Assembly: GCF_025144465.1 (NCBI RefSeq)
Contig: NZ_CP083553.1
Span: forward strand, 330,501-394,500
Length of the DNA: 64,000 nt
Source of the DNA: Leisingera sp. S132
Lineage (GTDB): Bacteria > Pseudomonadota > Alphaproteobacteria > Rhodobacterales > Rhodobacteraceae
Direction: 5' to 3'
Below, one piece after another: positions 7,331 to 59,806 of the stretch. The translations under genes and the position numbers were made by a program. Position 1 is the first letter of the stretch. Every line of letters begins with the position of its first letter. Under the pieces are notes generated by a model, which saw nothing but the letters and a program-made list of their open reading frames with translations, ran no database searches and had not been told where the DNA came from.

Positions 7331-7454
7331 GTCAGGACACTCGAACTCGGGGACCTTCGGGGCCCTATAACTCAGGCACCTACGGGGGCCTTCAACATAG
7401 CTGGGCCAAAGACAAGAACCTAAGGCCTGGCACGCTAAACGGAAGACAGAAAGC
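7331..7454 (+). promoter_or_regulatory. rplB leader with a UUCG-type hairpin motif
   Basis: The leader carries GACCTTCGGGGCC (7352-7364), able to fold as a short stem closed by C-UUCG-G. The same 13 bases occur before rpmC (15447-15459). A second G/C-rich hairpin follows (about 7378-7392). Both copies sit where ribosomal genes resume after other genes. No convincing -35/-10 pair was found. Confidence 0.4.
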
Positions 7455-27306: not shown

Positions 27307-29727
27307 ATGGCAAAGAAGAAGACATCCGCGGCCAGGCGGTTCTCACTGGCAAACCTCAGCACCAAGGTGAAAATCGTTTCCGTCGCGGTGCTGCCGCTGC
27401 TCTTGGTGCTTGGGGTGGGGGTGCTTGCCGTCTTCAACCTGGGCCGGATGGACCAGTCGGCCAAGGCGGTGGATCACACCCAGGAGATCCTGACAGGCTC
27501 GCAGACCCTGGCGGAGGCCGCCTCGCAGATGGAGGCGGGCCTGCGCGGCTATCTCCTGGCGGGCCGTGAGGAGTACCTGGTCCCCTTTGAGGAGGGCAAG
27601 AGCCAGGTCGCAGAAACCCTCGCCAGCCTGCGCAATCTGGCGGCGGGCGATGCCGCGATGCTGGCCACTCTGGATGAGGCAGAGCAGACCCTGACCGGCT
27701 GGCAGGAAAACGTGGCCGCAGGCGCCATCGCGCTGCGCCAGGAAATCGGCGATGCCATGACCATGAACGACATGGCCGCCGAGGTGAAGAAATCCAAGGG
27801 CCGGGTCTATTTCGAGCAGTTCCGCACCGAGATGACGAACGTCATCGAGGAGGAGGAAGTCGAGCTCAACAACCGCCGCAACACCTTCATGTCGCTGGTC
27901 AATGCAGGCATTGCGGATCCGGACTACCTGAACACGTCGCTGCAGGCGGTGGAGCAGACCCACAAGGTGATCAGCCGCGCCAAGGACCTGCAAGCCGCCG
28001 CGGTGGACATGGAGACGGGCATGCGCGGCTTCCTTCTGGCAGGAGACCGGGAGTTTCTGGATCCCTACATGGAGGGCAACGGCCGCTTCAACGAAGTCAT
28101 GGCCGACCTCCGTCTGGCGCTGGCAGACAACCTGATGCAGTCAAACCGCCTGAACAAGGTGGCGGGGATCATTGACGAATGGCGCAATGAGGTGGTGGTG
28201 CCGATGCTGCAGCTGCGCCGGGTGATCGGCAGTGCCGCCACCATGGACAACATGGCCGATCTGGTGGCCGAGGGCCGCGGCAAGGAGTACTTCGACAGCT
28301 TCCGCGCCACCATGGAAACCCTGCAGGCCGCCGGCACCGCAGCCATGGCTGAACGCCGCGCCGCCAACGAGGAACTGGGCGCCCGGACCCGCACCATGAT
28401 TCCTGCGGCTATCGGCGGCGCCATCCTGATCGGCGGCATCCTGGCGCTGGTGATCGCCTCCGGCATCGCGTCGGGCATCCGCCGCGTCGTGATGTCGATG
28501 CGCGGCCTGGCAGAGGGCAACAACGCGGTGGAGATCCAGGGCCAGAACCGGGGCGATGAGGTCGGCGACATGGCCCGCGCGCTGGAGAAATTCCGCGACG
28601 AACTGGTGCGGATGCAGGAGGCGGAAGCACAGAAGGCAGAGAGCAAGGACGCCGAGCTGGCGGGCGTGGTGCGCGAGCTGAGCGAGCGTCTGTCGCGGCT
28701 GGCACATGGCGATCTGACCATCCGCATCGCTGAGCAATTCCCCGAGGAATACGAGCAGCTGCGCGCCGATTTCAACGGCTCGATCGACAATCTGAACGCC
28801 ACCGTCCAGCAGGTGATAGAGGCCACCACGAGCATCCGTAGCGGTGCCGCCGAGATCAGCCAGGCCTCTGACGACCTGTCGCACCGCACCGAAAGCCAGG
28901 CGGCAACGCTGGAACAGACCGCGGCCGCGATTGATGAGCTGACAGCATCGGTGAAATCCGCAGCCGAGGGCGCCCGCAACGTGGAAAACACCGTGCGTGA
29001 GGCCCGCCAGGAGGCCGAAACCAGCGGCGAGGTGGTGCAGGAGGCGGTTACCGCCATGGGCGGGATCGAGGACAGCTCAAAGAAGATCAGTCAGATCATC
29101 GGGGTGATCGATGACATCTCCTTCCAGACCAACCTTCTGGCGCTGAATGCCGGGGTGGAAGCCGCCCGCGCAGGCGAGGCGGGCCGCGGCTTTGCGGTGG
29201 TCGCCTCCGAGGTGCGGGCGCTGGCGCAGCGCTCTTCCGATGCGGCGATGGAGATCAAGGCGCTGATCTCCGACAGCTCCCGGCAGGTGGATCAGGGGGT
29301 TGATCTGGTCGGCCGGGCAGGGGCGGCGCTGCAGTCCATCGTGGGCCGCGTCAGCCATATCTCGCAGCTGGTCTCCGAAATCGCCGAAGGCGCAGAGGAA
29401 CAGTCCACCGGCCTGCATGAGATCAACACCGGCGTCACCCAGCTGGATCAGGTGACCCAGCAGAACGCCGCGATGGTCGAGGAGGCCACTGCGGCCGGCC
29501 ACATGCTGAACAGCGACGCGATGAAGCTTGCCGACCTGGTGACGCGGTTCCAGGTGGACGGCAGCAGCGCTGCGCTTGCGGCCCCGGCCGCGCCAGCAGC
29601 GCAGCCCACAGCCCATGGTGATGATGACTGGGGCACTGAGGACTGGGCGGCCGAGCCTGGCCCGGCCCCGGTTGCAGCCGCCGCCAATGACGGTAATGCC
29701 GCCCGCGACATGTGGCAGGACTTCTGA
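27307..29727 (+). CDS. Methyl-accepting chemotaxis protein with two CHASE3 modules
   Basis: An 806-residue chemoreceptor. TM1 lies near residues 20-44, two CHASE3-type sensory modules follow (MEAGLRGYLLAGREEYL near 75; [17 protein letters not shown] near 235), then TM2 near 363-388, HAMP and a methyl-accepting signalling domain. The hairpin tip ([38 protein letters not shown]) binds CheA/CheW. The C-terminal MWQDF resembles a CheR docking pentapeptide. A beheaded paralogue lies at 61275-63060. ATG 27307 is preferred over TTG 27277. Ligand unknown; no che genes are nearby. Confidence 0.9.
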   Translation: MAKKKTSAARRFSLANLSTKVKIVSVAVLPLLLVLGVGVLAVFNLGRMDQSAKAVDHTQEILTGSQTLAEAASQMEAGLRGYLLAGREEYLVPFEEGKSQVAETLASLRNLAAGDAAMLATLDEAEQTLTGWQENVAAGAIALRQEIGDAMTMNDMAAEVKKSKGRVYFEQFRTEMTNVIEEEEVELNNRRNTFMSLVNAGIADPDYLNTSLQAVEQTHKVISRAKDLQAAAVDMETGMRGFLLAGDREFLDPYMEGNGRFNEVMADLRLALADNLMQSNRLNKVAGIIDEWRNEVVVPMLQLRRVIGSAATMDNMADLVAEGRGKEYFDSFRATMETLQAAGTAAMAERRAANEELGARTRTMIPAAIGGAILIGGILALVIASGIASGIRRVVMSMRGLAEGNNAVEIQGQNRGDEVGDMARALEKFRDELVRMQEAEAQKAESKDAELAGVVRELSERLSRLAHGDLTIRIAEQFPEEYEQLRADFNGSIDNLNATVQQVIEATTSIRSGAAEISQASDDLSHRTESQAATLEQTAAAIDELTASVKSAAEGARNVENTVREARQEAETSGEVVQEAVTAMGGIEDSSKKISQIIGVIDDISFQTNLLALNAGVEAARAGEAGRGFAVVASEVRALAQRSSDAAMEIKALISDSSRQVDQGVDLVGRAGAALQSIVGRVSHISQLVSEIAEGAEEQSTGLHEINTGVTQLDQVTQQNAAMVEEATAAGHMLNSDAMKLADLVTRFQVDGSSAALAAPAAPAAQPTAHGDDDWGTEDWAAEPGPAPVAAAANDGNAARDMWQDF

Positions 29728-29777: not shown

Positions 29778-29842
29778 GCGCTTTTGGGGGTGCGGGATTT
29801 TCAGGGGTGACAGCCCCGCGAATCTCCGCTAGCGTCCGGCCC

Positions 29843-29926
29843 ATGACCCGTACCTATGCCGCATTCTGGTATTTCTTTTATCCGCGCCACATGGCGGACG
29901 GAGGGGTCAGCGCATTCCCGGGTTAG
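29843..29926 (+). CDS. Aromatic-rich leader peptide of the DAHP synthase gene
   Basis: A 27-codon frame encodes MTRTYAAFWYFFYPRH..., with six consecutive aromatic codons (F-W-Y-F-F-Y, 29864-29881) covering all three aromatic amino acids. It ends at TAG 29924-29926, about 100 nt before the DAHP synthase start. This is the layout of an attenuation leader: shortage of charged tRNA-Phe, -Trp or -Tyr would stall a ribosome there. It is too short for ordinary gene finders. Confidence 0.8.
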   Translation: MTRTYAAFWYFFYPRHMADGGVSAFPG

Positions 29927-29984
29927 ACAGACCGGAACGCATCAGGATACCACCAACCGCCCGCAGCCCGCTGGCGGTTTTTTC
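29881..29984 (+). promoter_or_regulatory. Transcription attenuator upstream of DAHP synthase
   Basis: Three alternative pairings can be drawn. TCCGCGCCA (29881-29889) pairs with TGGCGGA (29892-29898) as a protector. GGCGG (29893-29897) can instead pair with CCGCC (29957-29961) as an antiterminator. The terminator is AACCGCC (29955-29961) with GGCGGTT (29973-29979) and a TTTTTT tail. A ribosome stalled on the aromatic codons would cover the protector arm and favour read-through. The folds were read by eye, not calculated. Confidence 0.75.
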
Positions 29985-30029
29985 GTATCCGCCGCAGCGC
30001 CAAGGGCCTCCCGCCAAGGAAGCTGACAC

Positions 30030-31109
30030 ATGACACCCCAAACAGAGAACCTCCGCATCACCGGCATGCAGGAACTGATCTCCCCCGAAGACCTCGCGTC
30101 GCAGATGCCCTCGACGGCGGCGGCCACCGATACCGTGCTGGCCAGCCGCACCGCCATTCAGGATGTGCTGCACGGCCGCGACGGCCGCGTGATTGCCGTG
30201 GTCGGCCCCTGTTCGATCCATGATCCCAAGGCGGCGATGGACTACGCCGAACGGCTGGCGCCGCTGCGCGCGCGGCTGGCCGGAGAGCTGGAAATCGTGA
30301 TGCGGGTCTACTTCGAGAAACCCCGCACCATCTCGGGCTGGAAAGGGCTGATCAACGATCCCGGCCTCGACGGCTCCTTCCGCATCAACGAGGGCCTGGG
30401 GCTGGCGCGCCGCCTGTGCCTGGACATCAACGCGCTCGGCCTGCCGGTCGGGACAGAGTTCCTGGATACGGCGGTGCCGCAGTACATCTCCGACCTGGTG
30501 GCCTGGGCCGCCATTGGCGCCCGCACCACCGAAAGCCAGATCCACCGCGAGATGGCCTCCGGCCTCAGCTGCCCGGTGGGCTTCAAGAACGGCACCCGCG
30601 GCAATGTGCAGATCGCGGTGGATGCGGTGCGCTCTGCCGCGCATCCGCATCATTTCATGGCGCTGGCCAAATCGGGCCGCGCGGCAATTGCGGCCACCAG
30701 CGGCAACCCGGACTGCCACCTGATCCTGCGTGGCGGCGGCGGTACCAACTTTGACGCGGCTTCCGTCGATGCGGCCTGCAAGCTGGCGGAAAAGGACGGC
30801 ATCCGCGGCCATGTGATGATCGACGCCAGCCACGCCAACAGCGGCAAGGATCCGATGCGGCAGCCCGCGGTGCTGCGCGACGTGGCGGCGCAGATCGCCG
30901 GCGGCGACAGCCGCATCACCGGCGTAATGGTGGAAAGCCAACTGGTGGCGGGCCGCCAGGACCTGGGCCAGGGGGAGCTGACCTACGGCCAGTCCATCAC
31001 CGATGGCTGCCTGGGCTGGGAGGACACCGTGGCCGAGCTGGAGCATCTGGCGGCAGCGGTTGCCAAACGCCGCATGGCGGCCCCGCAGGCGGAACTCGCG
31101 GAGGCCTGA
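30030..31109 (+). CDS. aroG: 3-deoxy-7-phosphoheptulonate synthase, class I
   Basis: A 359-residue DAHP synthase of the AroF/G/H type. It condenses phosphoenolpyruvate and erythrose 4-phosphate in the first step of the shikimate pathway. Motifs: AVVGPCSIHDPKAA, MRVYFEKPRTISGWKGLINDP, IGARTTESQIHREMASGLSCPVGFKNGT and the metal-site region MIDASHANSGKDP. The choice among aroF, aroG and aroH is by family only. It follows the aromatic leader/attenuator, so it should be controlled by aromatic amino acid supply. Confidence 0.93.
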   Translation: MTPQTENLRITGMQELISPEDLASQMPSTAAATDTVLASRTAIQDVLHGRDGRVIAVVGPCSIHDPKAAMDYAERLAPLRARLAGELEIVMRVYFEKPRTISGWKGLINDPGLDGSFRINEGLGLARRLCLDINALGLPVGTEFLDTAVPQYISDLVAWAAIGARTTESQIHREMASGLSCPVGFKNGTRGNVQIAVDAVRSAAHPHHFMALAKSGRAAIAATSGNPDCHLILRGGGGTNFDAASVDAACKLAEKDGIRGHVMIDASHANSGKDPMRQPAVLRDVAAQIAGGDSRITGVMVESQLVAGRQDLGQGELTYGQSITDGCLGWEDTVAELEHLAAAVAKRRMAAPQAELAEA

Positions 31110-49726: not shown

Positions 49727-51531
49727 TCCTTTTCAGCCTTCGGCTTCTTCTTGAAGCTCGACTTGATGTTGCCGAACACGTCCGGCTTGTAGCCATGGCT
49801 GCGCATGATCAGGTACTGCTGGGTGAAGGTGATCGTGTTGTTGGCGATCCAGTAAACCACCAGGCCGGAGGCGAAGCCGCCGAGCATGAACATGAACACC
49901 CAGGGCATCCAGGCAAAGATCATCTGCTGGGTCGGGTCGGTGGGTGCCGGATTCAGCTTTTGCTGCAGCCACATCGAGATGCCGAGCAGGATCGGCAGGA
50001 TGCCGATGAAGACCAGGGCCAGGATGCTCTCAGGTGCCGGGGAGGCAAAGGGCAGCAGGCCAAAGAGGTTCATGATCGAGGTCGGATCCGGCGCGCTGAG
50101 GTCCTGGAACGGGCCAAAGAACGGGGCGTGGCGCAGTTCCAGGGTGACGAAGATCACCTTGTAGAGCGAGAAGAAGATCGGGATCTGGATCAGGATCGGC
50201 AGACAGCCCGCGGCGGGGTTCACCTTCTCCTTCTTATACAGCTCCATCATCTCCTTCTGCATCTTCTGGCGGTCGTCGCCGGCGCGCTCCTTGAGCTTCT
50301 CCATTTCCGGCTGAAGCTCTTTCATCTTCGCCATGGAGGCGTAGGATTTATAGGCCAGCGGGAACACCAGGATCTTGATCACCACGGTCAGGCCGATGAT
50401 CGCCCAGCCCATGTTGCCGATCAGGACGTTCAGATTGTGCAAGAGCCAGAACATCGGCTTGGTCAGGAAGAAGAACCAGCCCCAGTCGATCACGTCCAGG
50501 AAGCCCTCGATGCCCGCTTTCTCATAGCCGCGGATGGCTTCCCATTCCTTGGCGCCGGCAAACAGCTGGGTGGTGACTTCAGTGGACTGGCCCTCTGCCA
50601 CGGTCACGGTCGGCAGCACGATGTCGGTCTGATAGATGTCGCGGCGCTCATCGAACTTGGCGATCGAGCGGAAGCTCTGGCCCGGTGCAGGCACCAGAGT
50701 GGACATCCAGTAGTGGTCGGTAAAGCCGATCCAGCCGTTTGCGTCGACCTGCTTGACGCTGGACTTGGAACCGTCGCGCGGATCGGGCTCGAAATCGGCC
50801 ATGTCGTCATAGTCTGTCTCGGCCAGCTCGCCGTCGGTCATGCCGACCAGGCCCTCGTGCAGGATGAAGAAGTTCTTCAGCCCCTCGGGCTGGCCGTGGC
50901 GGGCCAGGGTGCCGTAGGGCGCCAGCGACACGGTGCTGCCGGAGGCGTTGGCAACCGACTGGGTGACCGAGAACATGTAGTCCTCATCCACCGCGATGGT
51001 GCGCGAGAAGGTCAGGCCCTTGCCGTTGTCCCAGGTCAGGGTGACGGGGTTGCCGGGGGACAGGGTGGCGCCCTCAGATGCGGACCAGATGGTGTTGGCG
51101 CCCGGCACGTCGCTCAGCGTGAGGCCTGCGCCCGGTGCCCAGCCGTAGAGCGCGTAATAGGCGCCGGTCTCGCCCACCGGTTTCAGCAGTTTGACGATCG
51201 GAGAGCCTTCGTCCAGCGTCTCGCGGTAGTCCTTCAGCGACAGATCGTCGATCCGGCCGCCCTGCAGCGAGATGCTGCCGGTGACGCGGGGCGTGTCGAT
51301 GGCAACGCGCGGCGCATCCGGCGCGGCGGCCTGTTCGGCGGCGGTGTCTGCCACCGCATCGGCGCCCGCTGCGCTGGGCGCGGCGGCGGTGTCGCCGGCA
51401 GGCGCGGTTTCAGTGACCGCGGTTTGCGGCACCTGTTCCGGTTCCGGCGGCGGGAAGAAGGTGTACCACCCGAGGATCACCAGAAAGCTGAGTACGGTTG
51501 CGAGAATAAGATTTTTGTTCTGATCGTCCAT
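49723..51531 (-). CDS. yidC: Membrane protein insertase YidC
   Basis: A 602-residue insertase: N-terminal helix (LILATVLSFLVILGWYTFFPP), a large periplasmic P1 domain, and five conserved C-terminal helices with the hydrophilic groove arginine region (LAYKSYASMAKMKELQPEMEKLKER). It inserts and folds inner membrane proteins with or without SecYEG. The order rpmH-rnpA-yidD-...-yidC is the known chromosomal arrangement, though several genes intervene here. Confidence 0.96.
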   Translation of the reverse strand: MDDQNKNLILATVLSFLVILGWYTFFPPPEPEQVPQTAVTETAPAGDTAAAPSAAGADAVADTAAEQAAAPDAPRVAIDTPRVTGSISLQGGRIDDLSLKDYRETLDEGSPIVKLLKPVGETGAYYALYGWAPGAGLTLSDVPGANTIWSASEGATLSPGNPVTLTWDNGKGLTFSRTIAVDEDYMFSVTQSVANASGSTVSLAPYGTLARHGQPEGLKNFFILHEGLVGMTDGELAETDYDDMADFEPDPRDGSKSSVKQVDANGWIGFTDHYWMSTLVPAPGQSFRSIAKFDERRDIYQTDIVLPTVTVAEGQSTEVTTQLFAGAKEWEAIRGYEKAGIEGFLDVIDWGWFFFLTKPMFWLLHNLNVLIGNMGWAIIGLTVVIKILVFPLAYKSYASMAKMKELQPEMEKLKERAGDDRQKMQKEMMELYKKEKVNPAAGCLPILIQIPIFFSLYKVIFVTLELRHAPFFGPFQDLSAPDPTSIMNLFGLLPFASPAPESILALVFIGILPILLGISMWLQQKLNPAPTDPTQQMIFAWMPWVFMFMLGGFASGLVVYWIANNTITFTQQYLIMRSHGYKPDVFGNIKSSFKKKPKAEKE

Positions 51532-59729: not shown

Positions 59730-59806
59730 GGACCGATAGCTCAGCTGGATAGAGTACTTGACTACGAATCAAGGGGTCGGGGGTTCGAATCCTCCTCGGT
59801 CCGCCA
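59730..59806 (+). tRNA. tRNA-Arg (anticodon ACG)
   Basis: A 77-nt cloverleaf with encoded CCA. Acceptor GGACCGA / TCGGTCC, anticodon stem CTTGA / TCAAG with loop CTACGAA (anticodon ACG at loop positions 3-5), T-loop GGTTCGAATCC. It reads CGN arginine codons, with A34 normally edited to inosine. The IS region starts ~420 bp downstream. Confidence 0.96.

Follow-up and report, generated by a model that had tools for sequence, protein, structure and literature searches.

An aromatic leader peptide and a probable transcription attenuator upstream of aroG in Leisingera and other proteobacteria

In Leisingera sp. S132, the class I DAHP synthase gene aroG is preceded by a short reading frame with a run of aromatic codons and by RNA strands that can pair in alternative ways. 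Reading this anatomy together with its comparative record, we are highly confident that the element would act as a ribosome-mediated transcription attenuator, probably on a leaderless mRNA, sensing phenylalanine, tyrosine and, in most leaders, tryptophan. The underlying observation, a leader frame with stems ahead of aroG, had been made in a preliminary description of this DNA and is confirmed as real. Of the attenuator proposed there, the anatomy stands and is conserved in relatives; it is not, however, the sole control of the first shikimate step, the contrast with Trp-only trpE leaders does not apply in this genome, and the three amino acids may not carry equal weight. What is established here comprises the sequence parts, their conservation, a codon-level constraint, compensating changes in the stems, and spacing. 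The window, by which we mean the whole stretch of 64,000 nucleotides that was analyzed (G000:C1:330501-394500 of a genome of 4.69 Mb), provides the coordinates used below, and all features lie on its forward (+) strand.

The leader peptide frame runs from an ATG at 29843 to a TAG stop at 29924-29926 (29843-29926) and encodes the 27 residues MTRTYAAFWYFFYPRHMADGGVSAFPG; relatives hold matching frames. Its sensing stretch, Phe-Trp-Tyr-Phe-Phe-Tyr (29864-29881; codons TTC TGG TAT TTC TTT TAT), is supported by the codon-level constraint and the stall model discussed below. Six consecutive aromatic codons in so short a frame, the feature to which the preliminary description had drawn attention, are indeed present: of 494 frame ends in the real window, each opened by an ATG and counted over at most 45 aa upstream of the stop, the leader is the only one with an aromatic run of at least five, and of 45,020 such ends in 60 windows simulated with a first-order Markov chain derived from the window, none reached five and 4 had a run of four. 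The stop codon is separated by 28 nt from the terminator hairpin, beyond which lies aroG (30030-31109; TIGR00034, 502.8 bits against a cut-off of 173.2; PF00793, 303.8 bits). The upstream neighbor of the leader is a chemotaxis receptor gene with CHASE3, HAMP and MCP domains that ends at 29727. Elsewhere in the window, Rfam recognizes an L2-Alphaproteobacteria ribosomal protein leader (7374-7452, 62.1 bits) and a tRNA gene (59730-59803, 64.2 bits).

Transcription probably starts at or next to the leader ATG, which would make the leader mRNA leaderless. A -35-like hexamer, GTGACA (29807-29812), is followed after 17 nt by a -10-like hexamer, TAGCGT (29830-29835), itself 7 nt before the ATG, the two forming a putative promoter by resemblance to a consensus only. 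Among 115 leaders, many of them from close relatives and one of them (L076) later dropped, the spacer between the motif TANNNT and the start codon measures exactly 7 nt in 54 and falls within 5-9 nt in 67, and a Shine-Dalgarno-like sequence occurs in 1; L076 had passed the frame filter and was discarded as spurious for want of a terminator, which brings the leader counts from 115 to 114. Leaderless transcription has been described in this class of bacteria, both for trpL of Sinorhizobium meliloti, where the RNA begins with the ATG of the leader frame (PMC7298713), and for Caulobacter, where leaderless mRNAs are reported as frequent, numbering 375 (PMC4117421).

The RNA comprises four strands. 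Strand 1, the 5' arm of an early hairpin (29881-29885), pairs with 29894-29898 in the minimum-energy fold; the preliminary description placed this stem correctly and drew it too long, at 29881-29889/29892-29898. Strand 2, the antiterminator 5' arm (29893-29908), holds a GGCGG core (29893-29897) that pairs with CCGCC (29957-29961), as had been proposed, and contributes further pairs, so that in RNA ending at 29965 the antiterminator is longer than the core first described, extending to about 29893-29908/29946-29961. The end of strand 3, the antiterminator 3' arm (29946-29961), doubles at 29955-29961 as the 5' arm of an intrinsic terminator, AACCGCC/GGCGGTT with a T run (29955-29983; arms 29955-29961 and 29973-29979, the latter strand 4), as the earlier proposal had placed it. 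Folding, which that description offered as a check, recovers both the early hairpin and the longer antiterminator; the stability of this one leader's fold departs only moderately from that of shuffled sequences (z -2.39; equally stable in 4 of 200 shuffles), and the strong evidence for a switch is comparative and does not come from this fold.

From this arrangement we infer a start site, translation, stalling, termination and a response to each amino acid along the following lines. RNA polymerase would start at or beside the leader ATG, and a ribosome would translate the leader behind it. When tRNA charged with Phe or Tyr runs short, and probably to a lesser degree when Trp is the one lacking, the ribosome would stall on codons 8-13 and hide strand 1 wholly or partly, leaving the GGCGG of strand 2 free to pair with nascent strand 3, in which case no terminator would form and aroG would be transcribed. 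With all three aromatic amino acids plentiful, the ribosome would pass over strand 2 to the stop codon, and while strand 2 is covered, strand 3 would pair with strand 4 and transcription would end before aroG.

The energetics bear on how such a choice could be made. Once strand 4 has been made, and as long as strand 2 is free, the antiterminator and terminator folds of the window are nearly equal in energy, and only 6 of 43 minimum-energy folds keep the antiterminator; therefore, the choice must be kinetic and fall during transcription. In RNA ending at strand 3, the antiterminator forms in 42 of 43, a count that alone is weak because leaders with a shuffled middle part still reach a mean of 0.81. 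The early 1:2 hairpin has about 5 pairs in the window. Given the usual ribosome footprint, the GGCGG should lie just behind a ribosome standing at the window's stop codon, so that termination would lean on this weak hairpin or on timing.

Judged from the aligned leaders, both codons and stems are constrained. Counted over the 65 unique leaders that share the same spacing, aromatic codons stand at positions -6 to -1 in 56, 62, 65, 63, 32 and 65, respectively, position -1 being aromatic by definition and the leaders having been found by aromatic density, which favors such codons. The third base of the TTN and TAN codons in the run is T in 199 cases, C in 84 and a purine in 0, with both T and C at each position. 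The distance from the last aromatic codon to GGCGG is 11 nt in 86 of the 114 leaders (65 of them unique), and the rest of the peptide, beyond the aromatic run, differs strongly from lineage to lineage. The constraint at the level of codons suggests that the leader is translated.

On the side of the stems, the terminator is paired in 99.0% of cells over 43 representatives, its second pair being A-U in 23, G-C in the other 20 and never broken, and its covariation score exceeds those of all 500 shuffles; 4 of its 7 pairs are invariant, and 1 pair shows a change on both sides, a count matched by 340 of the 500. In the 3 rows that have changed to U at the final base of the terminator arm, the antiterminator partner of this base is A in 2 and G, giving a G-U pair, in 1. 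In the alignment of representatives, the antiterminator core pairs in 98.6% of cells, its covariation score is reached by 3 of 500 shuffles and its count of pairs changed on both sides by 77 of 500. The two stems share a near-invariant GC core, and a slide of +3 columns yields a like covariation score for each, with fewer paired cells.

Swapping strands between leaders, in permutations that treat related rows as exchangeable and ignore relatedness, gave for the 2:3 pairing of 26 lineage representatives a native value of -23.65 vs a permuted -20.73 +/- 0.55, reached in 0 of 5000 permutations (1/5000 with 10 representatives, 0/5000 with 43); outside the core the counts were 1/5000 with 26, 175/5000 with 10 and 37/5000 with 43. 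The native 2:3 combination beats the row median in 21/26, 7/10 and 30/43 rows. For the 1:2 pairing, the native value of -9.48 vs a permuted -8.39 +/- 0.30 was reached in 1 of 5000 permutations with 26 representatives, 11 of 5000 with 10 and 2 of 5000 with 43. The comparison of relatives thus upheld what the preliminary description had expected of them, namely, conserved aromatic codons and compensating stem changes.

How the amino acids might be weighed was addressed with a stall model that sets the first free base at a distance of 16 nt from the first base in the P site and lets the RNA extend up to strand 3. In the window, stalls with codons 2-5 in the A site give antiterminator probabilities of 0.04-0.11, a stall at Phe8 gives 0.68, at Trp9 0.70, and at Tyr10 to Tyr13 (codons 10-13) 0.98-1.0; from Pro14 onward, the ribosome starts covering strand 2. 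The aromatic run of the window is thus predicted to sit where a stalled ribosome would favor the antiterminator, with Trp near the weak end, and it is by computation only that a stall on the aromatic codons frees the antiterminator 5' arm. The sharp dependence on stall position is not general: with the ribosome at codon 2, the early hairpin still leaves the antiterminator unblocked, at a probability of at least 0.5, in 30 of 43 representatives, and at the last aromatic codon the ribosome would already touch the core in 7 of 43.

Phe and Tyr occur in all 115 leaders, and all three aromatic amino acids in 106 (105 of 114 without L076); the 9 that lack Trp belong to several lineages (L096-L099, L102, L104, L214, L216, L218). 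Because all leaders hold both and Trp is absent in several lineages, sensing of Phe and Tyr appears to be the common core, with Trp frequent but evolutionarily dispensable. At L095 (1059-1191, upstream of aroG), the promoter spacing, frame and terminator are kept with only Phe-Tyr, two aromatic codons, and this leader may be a weakened or a Phe/Tyr-only sensor. One could go further and suppose that leaders in general sense Phe and Tyr only, the Trp codon being carried along for structural or historical reasons because it sits at too great a distance from strand 1 on the upstream side, a tentative alternative that the Trp-less leaders and the lower value at Trp9 in the window make a real possibility, though not the leading one. 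It gains from Corynebacterium glutamicum, where the leader aroR, with Phe-Tyr-Phe, is reported to respond to limitation of Phe and not of Tyr (PMC11802643), so that not every codon present need count. It loses from the TGG that 49 of the 65 unique leaders with the same spacing share at a single codon position, from the sheer frequency of Trp, and from the stall model, in which a stall at the Trp codon keeps the antiterminator probability at 0.5 or more in 29 of the 36 representatives with Trp. We prefer the reading in which Trp is sensed as well, a stall at its single codon being predicted to act less fully. The combined supply of all three amino acids, claimed for this leader in the preliminary description, is therefore upheld as to the codons and qualified as to their weight.

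The distribution of the element follows that of aroG in alphaproteobacteria. In the scan of named genomes, among the best 80 of 587 confirmed stretches, the leader is present in 68 of the 79 that could be judged, recognized in 67 from the frame and in L051 from the covariance model, and the 11 without it (L047, L050, L058, L060, L065, L069, L070, L073, L075, L076, L081) are beta, methylotroph, Thiomargarita and Anaeromyxobacter records plus unplaced ones. L024, with 46 nt upstream, and L094, at a contig edge, fell outside the judgement by frame, the first 20 bases of L094 matching the 3' end of the model at 17.9 bits; L085-L089 and L105, duplicates of other loci, and L092, which is not aroG, were excluded. 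Within the genus, 21 of 21 genomes carry the leader, and in the family, 11 of 198 genomes hold class I aroG, with the leader at 11 of 11 loci (a twelfth match, in G163, was left out of the count as a 38% fragment).

The covariance model, R1, was built on 43 rows and run with stricter filters on a class sample of 385 alphaproteobacteria. There, aroG scored above cut-off in 14 genomes, and R1 matched exactly those 14, at 58.6-107.6 bits, against a best of 33.5 bits in the remainder; 6 of the 14 (G530, G383, G292, G556, G226, G473) lie outside the R1 alignment, relatives of some of them being inside. In 13 of the 14 the match adjoins aroG on the same contig, and in G383 the two are split between contig ends, the leader on one contig and aroG on a second that begins with 20 bases matching the 3' end of the model. 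Matches of up to 33.5 bits in this sample, and one of 11.1 bits at 51413-51519 of the window, were taken as generic terminators. In a phylum sample of 398 genomes, 225 had aroG above cut-off, 23 of them alphaproteobacteria, and the leader was found at E 1e-6 or better in 51, namely, all 23 aroG-bearing alphaproteobacteria (adjacency being checked singly for 3 of them, G000, G076 and G556) and 28 others, of which 18 lie beside aroG by coordinates, 8 by DNA, and 2 before pheA. By R1, then, 26 of 202 non-alpha genomes with aroG have the element before it, in five families (f193, f196, f216, f221, f227), and most are without.

Terminator and aromatic leader occur together. Under a lax rule, a terminator lies between leader and gene in 114 of 114 leaders, whereas 20 of 23 re-examined aroG loci without a leader by the frame filter have none; L051 and L095, missed by that filter, have a terminator and R1 scores of 79 and 58.6 bits, and L058 has a weak hairpin of another sequence. 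Among the top aroG copies of phylum families without the element (L153-L182), a terminator with the CCGCC core was found in 0 of 29 and a terminator-like hairpin in 1 of 29; loose aromatic ORFs occurred in 7 of the 29 scanned (all but L159, which lacks the gene motif), and the best R1 match was 21 bits (L177). In an AroG tree of 130 rows, 87 of them with the leader, the leader state changes 3 times vs 36.4 for shuffled labels, in a quick search, run after removal of rows more than 93% alike, that left open 37 of the 127 inner branches. A single group of 76 rows, comprising alphaproteobacteria, Lysobacteraceae, Rhodanobacteraceae and the records L006 and L030, carries the leader throughout. The last two are titled Nocardioides marinus and Mycobacterium sp. 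KBS0706, respectively, yet their aroG and leader fall among alphaproteobacteria, the AroG of L006 being 93% identical to that of the window; these records are probably mislabelled or mixed assemblies.

This association with aroG also bears on whether the element serves mainly as the source of a small RNA or of a functional small peptide, with regulation of aroG secondary. Such a role has a model in S. meliloti trpL, described as yielding both an sRNA and a peptide that act in trans (PMC7298713), but we consider it improbable for an element that, across the 385 genomes, occurs only with aroG, adjoins it in nearly every case, and encodes a peptide so variable outside the aromatic run. Least probable is a metabolite riboswitch or T-box-like RNA with an incidental reading frame: riboswitches, too, show a conserved terminator that competes with another pairing, but in the window no Rfam 15 family scored above its gathering score at the element, a permissive search of 29780-30040 gave only isrK at 12.7 bits, the putative start at the ATG would leave no room for an aptamer before the frame, and the aromatic run is constrained as codons.

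The place of the attenuator in the aromatic pathway is narrower than had been thought. The genome also encodes a type II DAHP synthase (L141, G000:C1:1690336-1691646) with no aromatic ORF within 500 nt, and no such leader, so that the first shikimate step is not under this leader alone, which corrects the preliminary description. Type II matches are present in 52 of 61 relatives, against the class I aroG of only 11 of 198 family genomes, and a terminator of the aroG type was found upstream of type II genes at 0 of 30 loci; at two of these loci, L129 and L145, ORFs passed a loose aromatic filter and were rejected, no terminator being found. It is plausible that the leader makes only one of the two DAHP synthases dependent on aromatic amino acids, with aroG as a demand-driven second enzyme. 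The contrast with Trp-only trpE leaders is likewise inapplicable in this genome: the gene for anthranilate synthase I, which we take to be trpE (L203), starts 16 nt after the preceding gene, and there is no aromatic ORF within 500 nt of it. The genome's own pheA (L254) has one loose ORF upstream, with three aromatics in eight, and two weak R1 matches of 17-18 bits, which we did not accept as a leader.

Taken together, these findings could describe an old, largely vertically inherited attenuator of about 140 nt with three inputs, the charging of tRNA-Phe, tRNA-Tyr and tRNA-Trp, whose strength would be set by codon position, retained at the entry of the aromatic pathway in alphaproteobacteria and several non-alpha proteobacterial families and leaving the second DAHP synthase free; for this fuller proposal we see the case as evenly balanced. 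The element provides a simple RNA rule by which many bacteria, including relatives of Leisingera, Caulobacter, Bradyrhizobium, Devosia and Pseudoxanthomonas, may set the flow into the shikimate pathway, and a natural experiment in how codon position sets the weight that a single leader gives to each of three amino acids. It could also enter Rfam and serve the annotation of aroG.

No description of the element in Proteobacteria was found in searches of open-access literature, where phenylalanine attenuators are named in other taxa (PMC1262725); the surveys of Panina 2001 and Vitreschak 2004, cited in the same source, may mention it. The pheL-pheA system of gammaproteobacteria is alike in its Phe-rich leader and its terminator with a T run, and R1 reaches Phe-rich leaders before pheA at two loci, L252 (G941:C1:3143300-3145100) and L253 (G919:C1:970100-972000), with 43.4 and 43.2 bits; these differ in holding Phe and neither Tyr nor Trp, and in terminators of the GCCTCC/GGAGGC kind. 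The permissive Rfam search of 29780-30040 gave no match of the Phe leader to the window's element. At L252, the pheA frame continues into the beginning of a DAHP synthase domain (NF006421, TIGR01361), possibly a fusion enzyme behind a Phe leader.

Leaders that read several amino acids of a branched pathway are familiar from thrL (Thr, Ile) and the ilv leaders (Ile, Val, Leu), which resemble the present element in that respect and differ in belonging to other pathways, with no aromatic amino acids involved; the Caulobacter ilv leader, for one, is described with Ile and Val codons (PMC4117421). Closer in lineage is S. meliloti trpL-trpE(G), alphaproteobacterial, with RNA starting at the leader ATG and ribosome-dependent (PMC7298713), although it senses Trp only and precedes trpE(G), not aroG. 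Closer in target is uORFC-13-1 before aroF of Acholeplasma, a predicted uORF with a terminator before a DAHP synthase gene, known from 24 representatives in Acholeplasma and environmental DNA; it differs in having an RBS and, as described, only at least one Phe codon (PMC8632094). The closest functional precedent is aroR-aroF of C. glutamicum, alike by anatomy only: there, too, a DAHP synthase gene follows a short leader containing aromatic codons, and ribosome stalling is said to raise transcription (PMC11802643, PMC4046766). It differs in being actinobacterial, in its Phe-Tyr-Phe stretch, with no Trp mentioned in these sources, and in its response to Phe and not Tyr. Because that system has already been reported, the control of a DAHP synthase gene by aromatic-codon attenuation has a precedent, and the proteobacterial element is, very likely, a real case of ribosome-mediated attenuation, of middling surprise.
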